From Alphaproteobacteria bacterium CG11_big_fil_rev_8_21_14_0_20_39_49 (GTDB lineage: Bacteria > Pseudomonadota > Alphaproteobacteria > Rickettsiales > UBA6187): a DNA stretch of 64,000 nt. Below, in pieces: positions 3,377 to 63,645 of the stretch. The stretch is from NCBI GenBank assembly GCA_002787635.1, contig PCXK01000017.1, forward strand, positions 1 to 64,000, read 5' to 3'. Both the position numbers and the translations under genes were made by a program. The notes below the pieces were generated by a model. That model saw nothing but the letters and a program-made list of their open reading frames with translations, made no database searches and was not told the origin of the DNA. The first letter of the stretch is position 1; each line of letters opens with the position of its first letter.

Positions 3377-6300
3377 TTGGCATACTCATTCACAGCTCGT
3401 AAACGTATTCGTAAAAGTTTCGGTAAGATTGAAGCGGTGGCAGAAATGCCTAATCTTATTGATATTCAAAGTAAATCATATGAATCATTCCTGCAAATGA
3501 CAACTCCTAGTGAGGAGCGTTCGGATGTCGGTTTGAACGGTGCTTTGGCATCGGTCTTTCCGATAAATGATATGGCGGAAACCTGTACCCTAGAGTATAT
3601 AGGCTATGCATTTGATAAGCCTAAATATGATGTTGAAGAGTGTAGGCAGCGTGGAATTAACTTTTCCGCTCCTTTAAAGGTAACTTTACGTCTTATTGTA
3701 TGGGACGTAGATGAAGATACCGGTGCCCGTGAGATAAAAGGCATTAAAGAGCAGGATGTTTATATGGGGGATATCCCTCTAATGACAAAGAACGGTACTT
3801 TTATTATTAACGGTACCGAGCGTGTTATAGTATCGCAAATGCACCGTTCTCCCGGTGTTTTCTTCGACCATGACAGAGGTAAGACGCATAGTTCGGGTAA
3901 GTTCCTGTACTCTGCACGTATTATACCTTACCGTGGTTCGTGGCTTGATTTTGAATTTGATGCTAAAGACTTGCTGTTCTTCCGTATTGACAGAAGAAGA
4001 AAGCTTCTTATAGGTACTTTGCTCAGAGCTTTAGGTTTTGATAAAAAACAGATGTTGGAAACTTTCTACAATAAGGATTTATTGAAGAGAGTTAAGAAGG
4101 GCTGGTCGTTCCCTTTCAATCCTGATGCGTTAAAAGGCACTAAACTTACTCGTGACCTGATAGATGCCGCAACCGGCAAGGTTGTTGCCGAAGCCGGTAC
4201 TAAAATGAGTCCGAGGGTGCTAAAAAAGCTTGTACAGTCAGGCATGAAGGAACAGCTTGTTAGTTCCGATGACTTAGTCGGTAAATATGTTGCCGAGGAT
4301 ATTATAGACCCGTCTACAGGTGAAGTATTCGTATCATTTGGTGATGAGCTTACATCAGACGCAATTGCATTTATTGAAAATTCAAAGTTAAAAGAAGTTT
4401 CGGTACTATCTGTTGACACTAATTCTAACACGGCATATATACGTAACAGCGTTGAAGCGGATAAGAACGTTACCTATGAAGAAGCGTTAATGGATGTTTA
4501 TAAGGTGATGCGTCCGGGTGAACCTGCTACTGTTGAGGCGGCGGAGGAATTGTTCCACAACCTGTTCTTTGATAAGGAAAGATATGACCTGTCAGCCGTC
4601 GGTCGTGTTAAGCTAAATGCAAGGCTTGATCTTGATACTCCTGAGGAAGTTGGCGTACTTACAAAAGAAGATATCATTACAATCATCAGAAAATTTGTAG
4701 ATATCAAGGACGGTAAAGGTGAGATTGACGATATCGACCACTTGGGTAACAGACGTGTGCGTTCTGTCGGTGAGTTAATGGAAAATCAGTTCCGTATAGG
4801 ACTTGTACGCATGGAACGTGCTATAATTGAGCGTATGGCTGCCGTTGAAATAGATACCGTAATGCCTCACGATTTGGTGAACTCCAAGTTATTGGCGGCT
4901 GTGCTTCGTGAGTTCTTCGGATCATCACAGCTTTCACAGTTCATGGATCAGACGAACCCTCTGGCTGAAATTACCCATAAGCGTAGATTATCGGCACTAG
5001 GACCCGGTGGTTTAACCCGTGACCGTGCCGGATTTGAGGTGCGTGACGTACATACTACCCACTATGGAAGAATATGTCCTATCGAGACTCCTGAGGGACC
5101 CAATATCGGTCTTATCAACTCGCTTGCCACATACGCAAACATAAATAAATACGGTTTCATTGAAAGCCCTTACAGAAAAGTTGTTGAAGGTAATGTTACT
5201 AATGAAGTTAGCTACATGTCGGCAATTGATGAGGGTAAGTACGTGATTGCCCAGTCAAATGCGGAACTAAGCAGTGATAACCGGTTTGTTGATAAGCTTA
5301 TAAGTTGCCGTAAAAACGGTGAGCTTGTTATGGTTAACCCTAAAAATATCGACTATATGGACGTATCGCCGATGCAGGTGGTATCTGTAGCCGCTTGTTT
5401 GATACCTTTCTTAGAAAATGACGATGCAAACCGTGCATTGATGGGATCGAACATGCAACGTCAGGCAGTGCCGTTACTTCGTAATGATGCACCGCTGGTC
5501 GGCACCGGTATTGAAGCTACCGTTGCTAGGGATTCGGGTGTAACCGTGGTTGCAACACGTGACGGTGTTGTCGAGCAGGTTGACGCTAACCGTATCGTTG
5601 TTAAATCAACTGACCTTGATTCTACCTCTCCGGGAGTTAAGATTTATAACCTGTTGAAATATCAGCGTACTAACCAAAATACTTCTATCAACCAAAGACC
5701 TGTCGTTAAAGCGGGTGACGTTGTGAAAAAAGGCGATATAATCGCTGACGGTTCCAGTACCGATTTGGGTGAGTTGGCTTTGGGACGCAACGTGCTTGTG
5801 GCGTTCATGCCTTGGAACGGTTATAACTTTGAGGACTCAATCCTTATATCTGAAAGGATAGTAAAAGATGATGTGTTTACTTCCGTTCATATCGAACAGT
5901 TTGAGATAGTTGCACGTGATACAAGGATAGGACCTGAGGAAGTTACCCGTGATATACCGAATGTAGGTGAAGAAAGCCTGAAGCATCTGGACGAGATAGG
6001 TATAGTTCACGTTGGTGCGGAAGTAATGCCGGGTGATATTTTGGTAGGTAAAGTTACTCCTAAGAGTGAGTCACCTATGACTCCTGAAGAAAAACTTCTT
6101 CGTGCCATTTTCGGTGAGAAAGCCGCTGACGTTAGAGATTCATCCCTTCGTGTGCCTCCGGGTGTAGGTGGTACTGTTGTTGAGGTTCGTGTGTTCTCAA
6201 GACGAGGTATCGAAAAGGACGAACGTGCGCTTTCAATTGAACAGGCTGAAATAGAACGTCTTGCTAAAGACCGTGATGATGAGCTTGCTATTGTTGAGAA

Positions 6301-7507
6301 CTTTATCTATGGCAGACTAAAAGAGATTATGAAAGGTAAAGAAATCTCCGATGGTCCTAAAGAAGCTAAGTCGGGAAAAGTCAGTGATGAGACTTTTGAA
6401 AAACTTAGCAACGGTCAGCTATGGCAGATTGTACTTAAAGACAGCAAAGCCATGGATGAGATTGAGATTCTTAAAGGTCAGCTTGATGATATTACACGTG
6501 ATTCTCAGGAGCGTTTTGATAACAAAGTTGAGAAACTACAATCAGGTGACGATCTGCCTCAGGGTGCTTTGAAAGTCGTTAAGGTTTTCCTTGCAGTTAA
6601 GAGAAAGCTACAGCCGGGTGACAAAATGGCAGGACGTCACGGTAACAAAGGGGTTATCTCAAGAATACTTCCGCAAGAGGATATGCCTTATTTAGAAGAC
6701 GGTACTCCTGTTGATGTTGTGCTGAACCCTCTTGGTGTACCTTCTCGTATGAACGTGGGACAGATACTTGAGACTCACTTGGGCTGGGCATCTGCCGGAC
6801 TCGGTAAGCAGATAGGTAGTGCCTATGATAAATATACCGCTAAGGAAGCTACGATTGATGACCTTAAAAAGCAGATAAACGCTTCATATAAAGATGCTAA
6901 AGTCAGCCGTGAAGTCAATGCCATGACCGAAGATGATGTTGTGGAGCTTGCACGTAACTTGCGTAAGGGTATTCCTTTTGCGACACCTGTTTTTGACGGT
7001 GCAAAAGAGGCGGATATCGTTACCGAGTTAGAAAGGGCAGGGCTAAATAGCAGCGGTCAGGTTACTTTGTATGACGGTCGTACCGGTGAGAAATTCGACA
7101 GAGATGTAACGGTAGGTTATATCTATATGTTGAAACTACACCACCTTGTTGACGATAAGATTCACGCAAGGTCGATAGGTCCTTATTCACTTGTAACGCA
7201 GCAACCGTTGGGCGGTAAGTCGCACTTTGGCGGACAGCGTTTCGGGGAAATGGAATGCTGGGCGTTACAGGCATACGGTTCATCTTATACATTGCAGGAA
7301 ATGCTTACTGTTAAATCTGATGACGTTGCAGGACGTATCAAGATGTATGAAGCTATTGTTCGCGGTGATAACAACTTTGAATCGGGCATACCGGAGTCAT
7401 TCCACGTAATGGTGAAAGAGCTTCGCTCACTATGCTTAAACGTTGCGTTAGAGCAAAGTGACGAAATTGATGACGTTACGCCTGAAAAACCGGCTGAGGC
7501 AGCTTAA
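3377..7507 (+). CDS. rpoB: DNA-directed RNA polymerase subunit beta
   Basis: This 1376-residue protein has the full beta-subunit length of alphaproteobacteria. The rifampicin-pocket region reads [20 protein letters not shown], followed by [12 protein letters not shown]; near the C-terminus [19 protein letters not shown] is the conserved switch/clamp segment. The start is TTG at 3377 ([16 protein letters not shown]) with GTGGAGA nine bases before it; a TTG start may help keep levels low. Both rifampicin-contact D and H residues (MDQ, THKRR) look wild type. rpoC follows after a 163-base spacer. Confidence 0.98.
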
Positions 7508-45573: not shown

Positions 45574-45667
45574 TCCTATCAATACATCACTTACATTATA
45601 TTTATAATTAACATTTTAATTTATGCAAATGGTTTTTAATGATTTTTATAATTTATATGTGTAAATG

Positions 45668-45697
45668 TTGCAAAACCTTACAAAACCGTGTTATAAT
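45668..45697 (+). promoter_or_regulatory. Promoter of the tmRNA gene
   Basis: TTGCAA (45668-45673), an 18-base spacer and the consensus TATAAT (45692-45697). The predicted start is near 45704, just ahead of the acceptor piece of the tmRNA. Confidence 0.7.
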
Positions 45698-45704
45698 AAA
45701 GGTG

Positions 45705-46045
45705 TTCTTTTGAACTATGGTAATAAAAGTCGCTTGGAATAGGCGTAACGGACCCGGGGGCGGTACCCGGCGTCTCCACCAAAGTCCACTAAATATAGTG
45801 AATTTTGGCGGGGACGAAATAGGATCGACGTGCGTAATAAAGAAGTAAGATTTTGCCCGGCATGATATCACCGTGAAGAATCAAATAAAGTAAATGCTAC
45901 TTTAACAACAATGAAAGCAGCTAACGATAACGCAAAACGTATCGTTGTTGCTAATGACAACTATGCTCCTGTAGCAATGGCAGCAGCTGCATAACCAGTC
46001 ATTAAGCGGTTTGGGGGACACCGGGCAACAGAAGTCCCCTTTTTT
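45705..46045 (+). ncRNA. ssrA: Two-piece (circularly permuted) tmRNA
   Basis: tmRNA rescues stalled ribosomes and adds a degradation tag. The gene is permuted, as in alphaproteobacteria: the acceptor piece comes first, with T arm CCGGG-GGCGGTA-CCCGG and 3' end GTCTCCACCA (ends 45781); after a 28-base processed loop the coding piece begins GGGGACGAAATAGGATCGACG (45810). GGGGAC pairs with GTCTCC to form the acceptor stem. The loop itself folds (CACTA/TAGTG). The tag frame runs 45917-45991 with TAA at 45992: it starts AANDN, has a second ANDN at residues 12-15 and ends YAPVAMAAAA. A GGGGAC/GTCCCC stem plus six T (46014-46045) closes the gene. The exact 5' end is estimated. Confidence 0.93.
46014..46045 (+). 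terminator. Terminator at the tmRNA 3' end
   Basis: GGGGAC (46014-46019) and GTCCCC (46034-46039) form a 6-bp GC-rich stem with a 14-base loop, followed by six T (46040-46045). It may also be part of the final helix or pseudoknot of the coding piece. Confidence 0.75.
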
Positions 46046-46137: not shown

Positions 46138-46668
46138 ATGAGTGACGATTTTATAGATTACGGAAAATTAATTGATGATGCTATGCACGTTATAGTACGC
46201 AAGGCTTTGCAACGTGTTAGCAAAGAAGGTCTGCCGGGCAAACACCATTTTTTTATTTCGTTCCTTACAAATTATCCGGGAGTGGTTATTTCTGATAATT
46301 TAAAACAAAAATATCCCGATGAGATGACAATTGTGTTACAGCATCAGTTTGAGGATCTTAAAGTTACCGATAAAAGATTCGATGTGGTATTAAGCTTTGA
46401 TAATGTTAAAGAAAATATAGGTGCTCCTTTTGATGCACTCTTGGCATTTGCCGATCCTAGTGTTAAATTCGGTTTACAATTCCGTCAGATGGATGAAATC
46501 TATGAAGATGATATGACTGAGTTGGAGGAAATGACCGAGGCTATTGAAAAAGAGCTGATGGAAGACCTTGAAGCTGAAAAACAAGACTCCAAATCAAAGA
46601 AAAAAAGCAGCAAATCTAAGAAAGAATCAGCAAATGTTGTTGATATTGACGCATTTAGAAAAAAATAG
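46138..46668 (+). CDS. sspB: ClpXP adaptor protein SspB, alphaproteobacterial type
   Basis: This 176-residue protein matches the alphaproteobacterial SspB: a core starting DYGKLIDDAMHVIVRKALQRV with GLPGKHHFFISFLT and FGLQFRQ (about residues 5-125), a charged flexible linker (about 130-163, rich in Glu then Lys/Ser), and a C-terminal ClpX-binding tail VVDIDAFRKK. SspB holds the AANDN part of tmRNA-tagged proteins and passes them to ClpXP. It lies directly downstream of the tmRNA gene, about 90 bases after its terminator, so the tag and its reader are neighbours. Confidence 0.9.
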   Translation: MSDDFIDYGKLIDDAMHVIVRKALQRVSKEGLPGKHHFFISFLTNYPGVVISDNLKQKYPDEMTIVLQHQFEDLKVTDKRFDVVLSFDNVKENIGAPFDALLAFADPSVKFGLQFRQMDEIYEDDMTELEEMTEAIEKELMEDLEAEKQDSKSKKKSSKSKKESANVVDIDAFRKK

Positions 46669-46773: not shown

Positions 46774-48792
46774 TTGACAGACGTAAATCAGGGTGCTAGC
46801 AGTGTACCGGCGGGGGGGAATCCACCTAGTACACATGCAGGTATAAACCCGGATAGAATGAAAATGGAACCTAAAAATATCAGCACTAACACAGCTGCCG
46901 GTAACCCTAATCCTAAATTACAGCAAAAGCAAAATACATCAGGTCAAGTGCCGGTGTCTAGGGTAGCCGTTGCAAGTACCGGTGAAAATAAAGCCGGTGC
47001 ATCAACTGTTCCTCCGGCTCCGGTTTCGAGTGTTTCTAAAGTGCCGCCGGTACCTGTTGCCAATAAAGATAGTGAAGGTAAAGAAGGCGAGCCTGTTAAA
47101 AATGTACCGTTGGGTGAAAAGCTTCTAAATAAAGGTCTGATATCAAAAGACCAGTTGGAAACCGCTTTGACCGAGCAGAAGAACCAGCCTAAGGGCAAGA
47201 AGAAGATGCTCGGAGCCGTACTTATCGACATGGGCTTTATTACGGAAAGTACTTTAGGTGAGGTTCTGACCGAGTCGTCCGGCGTAAAAATATTCGATAT
47301 TAAAAAAACTGTTCTTGATCCTAACTTAATCCAAAAAGTCCCTAAAGATGTTGCTATGCGTTCAAAAGCCGTTCCGGTTGCTATGGAAGACGGTGCCGTC
47401 CGTGTGGCTATTACGGATATTTACAACATTCTTGCCATTGACCAGATAAGGAAGTATTTCCCGAGGACATTAAAAATTGTTCCCGTATATGCTCCTGAGA
47501 GCGATCTGCTGGAAATAATTGACCAGTATTATGGTTATGAAACGTCAATAAGCGGCATTTTAAGAGAGATAGAGACGGGTATTTCCGATAAAGATAAGCA
47601 GATAAACGGTGAAATGGACGGTTATATTAATCCCACTGTGCGTCTAGTAGATGCTATTTTAGTAGATGCTATTAAACGGGGAGCTTCGGATATCCACCTT
47701 GAGCCTGAGGGAAACTTTGTAAGGCTGCGTTACCGTATTGACGGCAAGCTTATTCAGGTAAGAAGCTTCCATAAGGATTACTGGCCTGCGGTGGTGGTAA
47801 GGATAAAGATTATGTCCGGTATGAACATCGCCGAAACAAGAAATCCTCAAGACGGTCGTACAAGTTATTTCGTTTTAGGGCGTGATATTGACTTTCGTGT
47901 TGCTACGCACCCTACCGTATTTGGCGAAAATATCGTACTACGTATATTGGATAAACGTAAGTCGTTGGTTCCGTTGGAACAATTGGGATTGTCTGAAAAA
48001 AACGAAATTTTGCTAAGAAAGCTACTGAAGCGACCTGAAGGAATTATAATTGTTACAGGTCCTACGGGTAGCGGTAAAACAACCACTCTTTATTCTATAT
48101 TGAATCTGATAAACGAGGTTGATGTCAATATTATGACATTGGAAAATCCGGTGGAGTATCAGTTGTCAATGATACGTCAGTCGGACATTAAAGAAGATAA
48201 GGGTATGGATTTCGTTGACGGTATCAAATCGTTAATGAGGCAGGATCCGGATATCATATTCGTGGGTGAGGTGCGTGACGAGGCTACCGCCAGTATGGCG
48301 ATACGTGCCGCTATGACCGGTCACAAAGTATTTACTACATTACACACTAATGATGCGGTAGGTGCGATACCGAGGCTGGTAGATATAGGTATTCCGCCGC
48401 ATCTTCTTGGAGGCTCATTAATTTGTGTTATCGCTCAGAGATTGTTAAGAAAGTTGTGTTTAAATTGTAGACAGGCGGATCATATAACCGAAGAGGAATC
48501 AAAAATCTATAGGGTTGATCCTAGTCGGAAAATAAGAATATTCCGCAGGAAAGGGTGTGAAGAATGTATGCATACCGGATATAAGGGGCGTATTGCGGTG
48601 CATGAAATATTCCCTTGTGATAAAGGGCTTGATGAATTGATATCAACGGGGGCATCAAGGCGAACTATGGTTCAGTACGCAGCTGAAAAGGGGTTTGTTC
48701 CGATGGTAAATGACGGAATAAAAAAGGCTCTTGCGGGCATAACCGATCTTGATGAATTAATAAGGACGGTAGATATGACCGAAAGGTTATAA
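46774..48792 (+). CDS. PilB/GspE-family assembly ATPase
   Basis: This 672-residue protein has a Pro/Asn/Thr-rich disordered N-terminus of about 110 residues, a GspE N-terminal domain (GEKLLNKGLISKDQLETAL), and the secretion ATPase core: Walker A GPTGSGKTTTL, RQDPDIIFVGEVRDEATA, GHKVFTTLHTNDA and a zinc motif CLNC...CEEC with TGYKGR. It powers pilus extension or pseudopilus assembly from the cytoplasm. The start is TTG 46774 after GGGAGG. The long disordered head is unusual. The GspF/PilC gene follows after 26 bases. Confidence 0.92.
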   Translation: MTDVNQGASSVPAGGNPPSTHAGINPDRMKMEPKNISTNTAAGNPNPKLQQKQNTSGQVPVSRVAVASTGENKAGASTVPPAPVSSVSKVPPVPVANKDSEGKEGEPVKNVPLGEKLLNKGLISKDQLETALTEQKNQPKGKKKMLGAVLIDMGFITESTLGEVLTESSGVKIFDIKKTVLDPNLIQKVPKDVAMRSKAVPVAMEDGAVRVAITDIYNILAIDQIRKYFPRTLKIVPVYAPESDLLEIIDQYYGYETSISGILREIETGISDKDKQINGEMDGYINPTVRLVDAILVDAIKRGASDIHLEPEGNFVRLRYRIDGKLIQVRSFHKDYWPAVVVRIKIMSGMNIAETRNPQDGRTSYFVLGRDIDFRVATHPTVFGENIVLRILDKRKSLVPLEQLGLSEKNEILLRKLLKRPEGIIIVTGPTGSGKTTTLYSILNLINEVDVNIMTLENPVEYQLSMIRQSDIKEDKGMDFVDGIKSLMRQDPDIIFVGEVRDEATASMAIRAAMTGHKVFTTLHTNDAVGAIPRLVDIGIPPHLLGGSLICVIAQRLLRKLCLNCRQADHITEEESKIYRVDPSRKIRIFRRKGCEECMHTGYKGRIAVHEIFPCDKGLDELISTGASRRTMVQYAAEKGFVPMVNDGIKKALAGITDLDELIRTVDMTERL

Positions 48793-48818
48793 TAAAATTA
48801 ACAAAGGTAAAGTGAAAA

Positions 48819-50021
48819 ATGCCTATATATAATTATGTAGCATTAAATGAAAAAGGAAGGAAGATACGCGGCAATATGTCGGCGGTCAATGAGGTTGACC
48901 TTGCCGAGAGGCTGAACGGTATAGGGCTTGACCTTGTGGACGAAAAAGTTGCCAAAGAAAAAAAAGGCGGAATGTTCAATAAAGTATCGCTACAGGATAA
49001 GATTCTGTTTTGCGTGCATATTGAACAATTAGAAAGGGCAGGTGTGCCTATACTGGATTCAATAGCGGATATCAGGGACTCTGCCGATAGTCCTGCTATT
49101 AAAGATATGATGGCGGAAGTGTTTGATGCGGTACATTCGGGTAAAATGCTTTCTAAAGCTTTGGCAGAACACCCCAAGATATTCGATTCGGTATTTATCG
49201 CACTTGTTGAAGCCGGTGAAAAATCAGGAAACCTGCATGAAGTGTTCCACCATTTGGGACACCACTTAAAATGGGTGAATTATATAAGAAGCAAGATAAA
49301 GAAAGCGATATATTATCCTACGTTCCTGCTGTTTTTGATGTTCGGAATCATATCGTTGATGATGCTTTTTGTTATACCGAAATTATCTTCGTTCCTGACG
49401 GCTCAGAACTTTGATCTGCCTATATATACTACTGCGTTGATAAATACGTCAAACTTTTTTACAGATTACTGGTATTTGATATTTAGCGTACCGATATTAT
49501 TAGTTATTATAATAAAGATGCTTATAAAGTTTTCAGAGAGTTTTGCCTATAATGTTGATGCGTTTAAATTAAAAATACCTGTTGTGGGTACTACTATAAG
49601 TAAGATTGAACTGGCGAGGTTCTGCCATTTCTTCGGAATTATGTATAAAAGCGGTATCGGTATATTAGATTGTCTTGATGTAGCTAATAATGTTGTAAAA
49701 AATAAAGTTATATCTGAGAATGTTAGTGTTATTAAAAAAAGTGTGTCGGAGGGTAACTCGCTAACCGAATCGTTAAAGGTTTCAAGCCGATTCCCTAATC
49801 TGGTGATAAGAATGTTTAAGGTGGGTGAAGAAAGCGGTAACCTTGATGTAACCATTGAGAACATTAACTTCTTCTATGACAAGGAAGTTGAGGATTCGGT
49901 TAATAATATGGTCGGTGTAATACAACCGTTTTTAACTATTGTAATGGGTCTTATAATGATGTGGATATCGTTAGCGGTATTCGGACCGTTATATAACAGC
50001 TTTAGTAAAATGAATTTTTAA
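48819..50021 (+). CDS. PilC/GspF-family inner-membrane platform protein
   Basis: This 400-residue protein has the two-domain GspF architecture: a first cytoplasmic domain with EQLERAGVPILDSIADI and LVEAGEKSGNLHEVFHHL, a membrane helix pair, and a second copy with FCHFFGIMYKSGIGILDCL and VGEESGNLDVTIENI, ending in a hydrophobic helix. It is the platform that the ATPase turns during pilin assembly. It lies between the ATPase gene and the PilM/N-like gene in a tightly spaced run. Confidence 0.92.
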   Translation: MPIYNYVALNEKGRKIRGNMSAVNEVDLAERLNGIGLDLVDEKVAKEKKGGMFNKVSLQDKILFCVHIEQLERAGVPILDSIADIRDSADSPAIKDMMAEVFDAVHSGKMLSKALAEHPKIFDSVFIALVEAGEKSGNLHEVFHHLGHHLKWVNYIRSKIKKAIYYPTFLLFLMFGIISLMMLFVIPKLSSFLTAQNFDLPIYTTALINTSNFFTDYWYLIFSVPILLVIIIKMLIKFSESFAYNVDAFKLKIPVVGTTISKIELARFCHFFGIMYKSGIGILDCLDVANNVVKNKVISENVSVIKKSVSEGNSLTESLKVSSRFPNLVIRMFKVGEESGNLDVTIENINFFYDKEVEDSVNNMVGVIQPFLTIVMGLIMMWISLAVFGPLYNSFSKMNF

Positions 50022-61803: not shown

Positions 61804-61834
61804 AAAGCCCCTCATTAATAGGGACTTTTTTTAT
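61804..61834 (+). terminator. Bidirectional terminator between rpmB and cobT
   Basis: AAAAGCCCCT (61804-61813) pairs with AGGGACTTTT (61821-61830), one internal mismatch, with a 7-base loop, an A run before and a T run after. It can serve both converging genes. Confidence 0.88.
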
Positions 61835-63645
61835 GCGGCTTTTGAATGTTCGAATATTTCGGTTAGCTGTTCAAACATAGTGTTTTCAAGCTCATCTACA
61901 TCTTTTATTGTCGCTGCGTGTGAGTAATAGCGGTTTACATCATGACCTATGCCTATAGCTATCAGTTCAATATCGGATTTCTTCTCGACTGCATGGATAA
62001 CTTCCCTTAAGTGGTTATCAAGGTAGGATACGGAATTAGATGATATGGTGCTGTCGTCAACCGGCGCACCGTCGGATATTACCATCAATATACGGCGTTT
62101 TTCAGGACGCATCGATAGACGCTTGAACGCCCACAATATAGCCTCTCCGTCAATATTCTCTTTTAAGATGCCCTCCTTTAGCATTACCCCAAGATTTTTG
62201 CGTGCCTTACGCCAAGGAGTGTCGGCAGACTTATATATTATATGGCGAAGGTCGTTTAGCCTGCCGGGGTTTTTGGGGCTGCCTTCATCTTGCCATTTCC
62301 GTCGTGACTTTCCCCCTTTCCATTCAACGGTGGTAAAGCCTAAAATCTCAACTTTTATACCGCAAGCCTCCAGTGTTTTAGCCAGTATTTCGGCACTCAT
62401 GGCAGCTACGGTTATAGGTCGCCCCCGCATTGACCCCGAGTTATCCAAAAGCAGTGTAATTATAGTATTCACGTTTTGGGATTCACGCTCTTGTTTGCAG
62501 TATTCAAGGTAGTTTGGGTCTGCGATTAGGGCAGGGAGCTTGCGGCTGTCAAGTATCCCGTATTCAAGGTTAAAATCCCATGATTTGCTATGCTGTGAAA
62601 GAAGTTTCCGTAAAAAATTATTAGCCGCCTTACGGTTCATTCTTTTTAGCTTGGCAAGCTTTAAATCCAGTTGGTTCCTCAGATATGCAAGCTCTTCATC
62701 ATCGTACAGCTTTTCTGCCTCGACTATCTGGTCAAAGCCGTTCGTATAAATTTTATACGGTATGTAATGTTTACTTTCTAAATTGTTATTGCGTAGGGTT
62801 ACGCTTACCTCAGTGCCTTTATCGGACGGTTTTACACTAACCTCGGAATCACTATCTTCGGATATCTGCGGCTCATCATCTGTGAAGCTATCTTCAAAAG
62901 AAGCTTCCTGTTTCGGCTGGTTTAGCTGCTCATCTTTTATATCTGAAGAAGATGACTCATCGGTTTTTTCATCATTTTGCGGTTCTTCATTCTCATCGCT
63001 ATCGCCGCCCTGTTCGTGTAGCTTTAGATTTTTAATTAAATCAAGAATGCTTTTTGCAAATTCTTCCTGATTGTTGATATTGTTTTCCAGCCTATTGATA
63101 TATTTTGAAGATTTCGCTTTTATAAGGCTACCCCATTTTTCAAGCAAAGCATTAGTTATCGGAGGTAACTTTTGTTTTGTCAGGGCTTGCAATGTTAATA
63201 GATATACAGCCTGATCGACAGGCGGCGGCTTGCCTTCATGCAGCGTTTCATAGTCATTATGTAAAAAATCGTAGATAATCTTATTTTGGATATTCTTAGC
63301 AATGCCTTCCATTTGCAGCGAGCCTATAGCCTCAATGCGGGCTTTTTCTGCGGCGTTGAATATGTCCTGCGAACTGCTCTTGTCAGAGGGGGCAAGTTTG
63401 CGGTGTATGTTCTTATCGTGGTATTTCATTTGTAATGCGGCACTGTCAACCATTCCCCTTATTGCCGCCATATGGCTTTCGGAAAGGTTCGGGGAAATTT
63501 GCGGTATGTTCAGGGTATCGCCCTTTAAGGTTGCATTGATGGAATTGCCCTGCCTGAAATTTACCGAAGCTTCCCCCTTGTTGGAAACGGCACGCAAAAC
63601 CGAAGATTCAGCCTGTTCAAAAAGTTTGTTTTCCGTATCATCCAT
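61831..63645 (-). CDS. cobT: CobT-like cobaltochelatase subunit with VWA domain
   Basis: This 604-residue protein follows CobT: an N-terminal helical domain, a very acidic Asp/Glu/Ser linker (about residues 215-280), and a C-terminal von Willebrand A domain with the metal-site MIDAS motif [12 protein letters not shown], plus [10 protein letters not shown] and [10 protein letters not shown]. CobT works with the CobS ATPase and CobN to insert cobalt in aerobic cobalamin synthesis, yet many alphaproteobacteria keep CobST without that pathway. No cobS or cobN is in the window. The start is ATG 63645. Confidence 0.93.

Follow-up and report, generated by a model that had tools for sequence, protein, structure and literature searches.

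A tmRNA tag is commonly regarded as a short signal that offers a single site to an adaptor. In the stretch of alphaproteobacterial DNA analysed here (contig PCXK01000017.1, 64,000 nucleotides, hereafter the window), the tmRNA gene encodes a tag in which the SspB-type motif ANDN occurs twice. The locus raises the question of whether the doubling arose in this genome or was inherited, and what a second adaptor motif could contribute to the fate of a tagged protein.

The tmRNA gene and its surroundings

A single permuted two-piece tmRNA gene (ssrA), leader included, was located on the + strand at 45665-46042 by covariance-model search, in agreement with ARAGORN, and the search of the whole 2.3-Mb genome gave no other copy. 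The match reached 213.3 bits (E 2.3e-60) with RF01849 and 127 bits with RF04321, against curated scores of 50 and 47, respectively. The order of the pieces is permuted: the acceptor piece (45719-45781, +, placed by the RF04321 alignment and the sequence) ends in CCA at 45779-45781 and is encoded 5′ of the coding piece (45810-46042, +), which starts with GGGGACGAAATAGGATCGACG, has a 5′ block conserved with relatives and an approximate 3′ limit. This order, the conserved 5′ block, and a tag with ANDN and an Ala-Ala end are common to the window and to the alphaproteobacterial two-piece tmRNAs described by both models, whereas the window differs in a 52-nt insert in the tag region relative to the Rfam model and in the length of the tag (32 residues, against about 12). 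A promoter-like site (TTGCAA-18-TATAAT, the second hexamer being preceded by TG) lies at 45668-45697 (+, 10 of 12 consensus matches), the number of such sites recovered by the consensus scan being not above that in shuffled sequences.

The next gene downstream is sspB (46138-46668, +), encoding the ClpXP adaptor as a protein of 176 aa (PF04386, E 5.6e-43), which resembles SspB proteins of known structure (2nys, 2qas, 2qaz) and retains the conserved end VVDIDAFRKK in the alignment. The genome also encodes SmpB and ClpX, at other loci. Adjacency of ssrA and sspB was considered as an order-specific feature and rejected, as sspB is found nearby at 75 of 94 loci of the order but also at 21 of 30 loci outside of it. 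An alkaline phosphatase family protein (PF00245; 43959-45149, +) is encoded just 5′ of the tmRNA, and a T2SSE ATPase (type II secretion or type IV pilus) together with a T2SSF membrane protein (46774-50021, +) follows 3′ of sspB. The start of the window holds a tRNA-Trp (172-247, +) upstream of rpoB (RNA polymerase beta; 3377-7507, +), and a CobT-type protein (PF06213, PF11775) is encoded at 61831-63645 on the − strand.

Resume codon and structure of the tag

The earlier note had let the tag start at 45917 and counted 25 residues. For placing the resume codon, we used a weight matrix of positions −14 to +2, built from 82 unique relatives of the same order. The GCT at 45896-45898 scores 18.5 bits, with a leave-one-out median of 14.8 among the relatives, while the scores are 2.5 bits at 45917, −7.2 at 45920 and −3.3 at 45950; ARAGORN selects the same codon. 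The upstream context in the order is mostly TAAAT or TAAGT, with an A at −4 in 82 of 82 unique cases, and in E. coli this A (A86) determines that translation resumes four bases further on (PMC2481249). With resumption at 45896, the tag therefore has 32 residues and not 25: the frame (45896-45994, +) runs through 32 codons to the stop TAA at 45992-45994 and encodes ATLTTMKAANDNAKRIVVANDNYAPVAMAAAA. The resume codon precedes both motifs, so that resumption past the first ANDN, which the earlier note had left as an option, does not apply.

It is very unlikely that translation resumes instead at 45917 or 45920 and produces a tag of 24-25 residues opening with the first ANDN. Almost every other double tag of the order does begin, right at its resume codon, with an AN-type motif, and the base at −4 of 45920 is an A, but the context scores of these two positions, the ARAGORN choice and the location of the insert downstream of a retained TAAAT context all stand against it; on context score, 45950 was rejected along with them. 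As this case shows, a tag that is delimited by eye on the strength of its ANDN may be given the wrong resume codon.

Within the tag, the first ANDN (GCTAACGATAAC, 45920-45931, +) occupies residues 9-12, and the second (GCTAATGACAAC, 45950-45961, +) residues 19-22, at a distance from the C-terminus (14 residues) like that in an ordinary tag. The near-repeat described in the earlier note was recovered as such: the two copies are 30 bases apart, match at 10 of 12 positions and lie in a single open frame. Its reading of two SspB-type motifs also holds, with sspB present and adjacent. They are separated by the spacer AKRIVV (45932-45949, +), which in the alignment is about 9 nt longer than in the same-family relative L006, and followed by YAPVAMAAAA (45962-45991, +), the expected ClpX-binding end, a function that we take over from general knowledge of ssrA tags. 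An ANDN-type word and an Ala-Ala end, together with SspB in the genome, place this tag among those presumably recognised by SspB, and two ANDN words, the last one within 11-17 residues of the end, among the tandem tags. Its first motif is not located at the resume codon, a position that is the rule among the relatives but is not known to be a requirement, being preceded by ATLTTMKA (45896-45919, +), an N-terminal extension that is not found in the same-family relatives L006 and L117 in the alignment.

Two in-frame additions distinguish the window from L006 (ANDNFVVANDNFAPVAIAAAA): about 24 nt at the resume codon, which make the first motif begin at residue 9, and 9 nt within the spacer. As judged from these alignments, what is unusual and private to the window is the insertion at its resume codon. 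A weak hairpin of the AAAGTA type, with 7 pairs, can be folded at 45886-45904 (+, −3.8 kcal/mol). It arises from the private insertion, and the resume codon reaches into its loop (45893-45897) with two bases, the first and the second.

Distribution of tandem tags

The survey covered the Rickettsiales in a broad sense, an order of mostly host-associated Alphaproteobacteria, assigned here partly through tags that we take to be those of Rickettsia and Ehrlichia. It comprised 111 distinct resolved tags from 25 families; some of the ANDN-less ones were read manually, with the conserved context as a guide. Of the 111 distinct tags, 39 have a second ANDN, and these come from 17 of the 25 families, while 2000 residue shuffles gave a mean of 0.35 such tags and a maximum of 3. 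Outside of the order, a second [ASC]N[DE]N was found in 3 of 88 resolved tags of a class-wide sample. The statement that usual alphaproteobacterial tags have one ANDN is thus accurate for the class outside of this order but not within it. In two further genomes of the same family, both incomplete, no tmRNA was found.

On a tree of SspB proteins, a short protein giving many weak branches, the tandem state needs four changes and occurs on both early branches of the order. A single early origin followed by later losses would be the simplest reading of this tree. Given its presence in 17 families and the four changes on the tree, the tandem is therefore not an event of this genome. The alternative foreseen in the earlier note, that all relatives share the long tag as an old feature, is largely what we observe, except that tag lengths differ.

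In double tags, the last motif is located at a median of 13 residues from the C-terminus and the first one at 22, while the motif of ordinary single tags of the class is located at 12. The distal half of a double tag therefore corresponds to an ordinary tag, to which the proximal motif has been added. The spacing between motifs ranges from 5 to 18 residues, with 9 as the commonest value (21 of the 39 distinct tags). The tags of L006 and L034 (ANDNFVFANDNNSSANLVAA, presumably an Ehrlichia tag) share with the window two ANDN motifs, the last about 13 residues from the C-terminus; they open with ANDN at the resume codon, whereas the window tag opens with ATLTTMKA. Several lineages keep one copy while the other has decayed (ANDDFVAANDNV, ANDNFAAEDN, ANKNVFNGNADKVANDN), and which copy is affected varies by lineage, a pattern that fits redundancy of the two motifs. 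The second motif is encoded in 11 synonymous ways, and the peptide is therefore the conserved thing.

Other deviating tags were observed along the way. In one family with very small genomes, three tags resume at GGA and have Gly in place of the usual first Ala (for example GNDNNKRMALAA). Six tags from other orders of the class, from genomes with SspB, are 20-31 residues long, partly Arg-rich, and contain the AN-x-N words ANRN, ANFN and SNGN instead of ANDN, which perhaps points to a changed adaptor specificity. One genome with 4% contamination gave more than one tmRNA match, with the differing tags ANDNEMALAA and ANRKALGFADLTVGMSKMRLAA.

In the open literature searched, we found no discussion of natural tandem tags and none of four tandem tag strings, although tag databases surely list some such sequences; papers on the tmRNA databases mention neither tandem motifs nor SspB. 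The doubling therefore appears to have gone undiscussed.

Association of the motif with SspB

Among the genomes tested for SspB, the motif [AG]N[DE]N is present in 105 of 110 SspB-positive genomes, which leaves five without it, and in 4 of 14 SspB-negative ones (p 1.6e-8). When counted by family, the link is not significant (p 0.16), and independent losses are few. In one of the four SspB-negative exceptions ssrA lies at a contig end, and sspB may be merely unassembled. All eight genomes of one family, f16, are devoid of SspB; its five resolved tags have 26-40 residues, do not contain ANDN and apparently resume at the glycine codon GGC in the usual context. Likewise, two SspB-less genomes of a Wolbachia-like genus have ANNN where their relatives have ANDN. 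Such a correlative link is suggestive of a motif that is kept for SspB.

Discussion

In regard to the function of the two motifs, we consider it probable that they represent redundant docking sites for SspB, on a normal two-piece tmRNA with a tandem tag of the kind present throughout the order, consisting of an ordinary distal and an extra proximal site. Trans-translation would resume at GCT 45896, adding Ala and 32 residues. The distal half, ANDNYAPVAMAAAA, would behave much as an ordinary alphaproteobacterial tag, offering ANDN to SspB and the Ala-rich end to ClpX, while the proximal ANDN would be an additional SspB docking site retained from an ancestral double tag. SspB could dock on either motif, after which the tail would be fed into ClpX. 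Presumably, SspB is bound to only one motif at any given moment, which would make the two motifs redundant or rebinding sites, with the farther one leaving more free peptide for ClpX.

What the second site contributes is more doubtful. A synthetic AANDENYAANDENY tag caused no significant change in the KD of E. coli SspB, and its authors doubt double occupancy (PMC8512704). That degron shares with the window two SspB-binding words in tandem, but it has a spacing of 7, does not end in ALAA and was combined with E. coli SspB and ClpXP. In the same study, a longer sequence before ALAA improved degradation (PMC8512704). Tag length itself may thus be part of the benefit, and, with no gain in affinity from the synthetic tandem, a longer tag alone may be the target of selection.

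Alternatively, the tag could act as a bivalent clamp, engaging both grooves of one SspB dimer or two dimers at once and thereby tightening delivery to ClpXP, in line with the earlier suggestion that each tagged protein offers two SspB-binding sites. Dimeric SspB offers two sites for tags in E. coli and in Caulobacter, both motifs are intact in 17 families, and the preference for a spacing of 9 would suit such an arrangement; two SspB contacts per tag are possible as far as the motifs go. Simultaneous holding of both motifs is less likely, because the spacing varies from 5 to 18 residues and because the synthetic tandem, though with E. coli SspB and a spacing of 7, gave no significant gain in affinity, and we regard the clamp as rather unlikely.

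A passive second copy appears unlikely as well. The proximal motif would then be a leftover, with selection acting only on a longer tag or on a motif at one place. Loss of one copy in many lineages, the better degradation of longer tags in E. coli, and the f16 tags, which are long yet without ANDN in the absence of SspB, would all agree with such an explanation. However, both motifs are exact in many families though the neighbouring residues vary, and the second motif has 11 synonymous spellings.

Maintenance of the repeat for a hairpin in the tmRNA instead of for the peptide is highly improbable. The fold AACGAT...ATCGTT pointed out in the earlier note does exist, and several relatives allow a hairpin to be drawn around one motif or the other, but the tags fold about as their synonymous recodings do (mean z −0.56 for double tags and −0.19 for single tags; −0.68 for the window), and most SspB-less genomes have lost the motif; a hairpin as the cause of the repeat was rejected on the recoding results. 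Finally, a recent duplication of ten codons, in frame and private to this genome, as initially proposed from the 10 of 12 matching bases at a distance of 30, has almost negligible probability, since both motifs are present in same-family and other relatives, the relatives do not show ten inserted codons, the private insertion is located at the resume codon and in the spacer, and the order survey and the few changes on the weakly branched SspB tree contradict it.

A wider scenario is put forward here tentatively, as one that may well not hold: the order would ancestrally have used a double-docking tag with multivalent handover of rescued proteins by SspB, followed by loss of one copy, or of both together with SspB, while in the window the docking sites would have been moved off the resume codon. 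An order-wide natural tandem, with a motif that tends to vanish along with SspB, represents a natural experiment on the importance of the adaptor. Natural tandem tags also bear on the question of whether several docking sites aid delivery to ClpXP.
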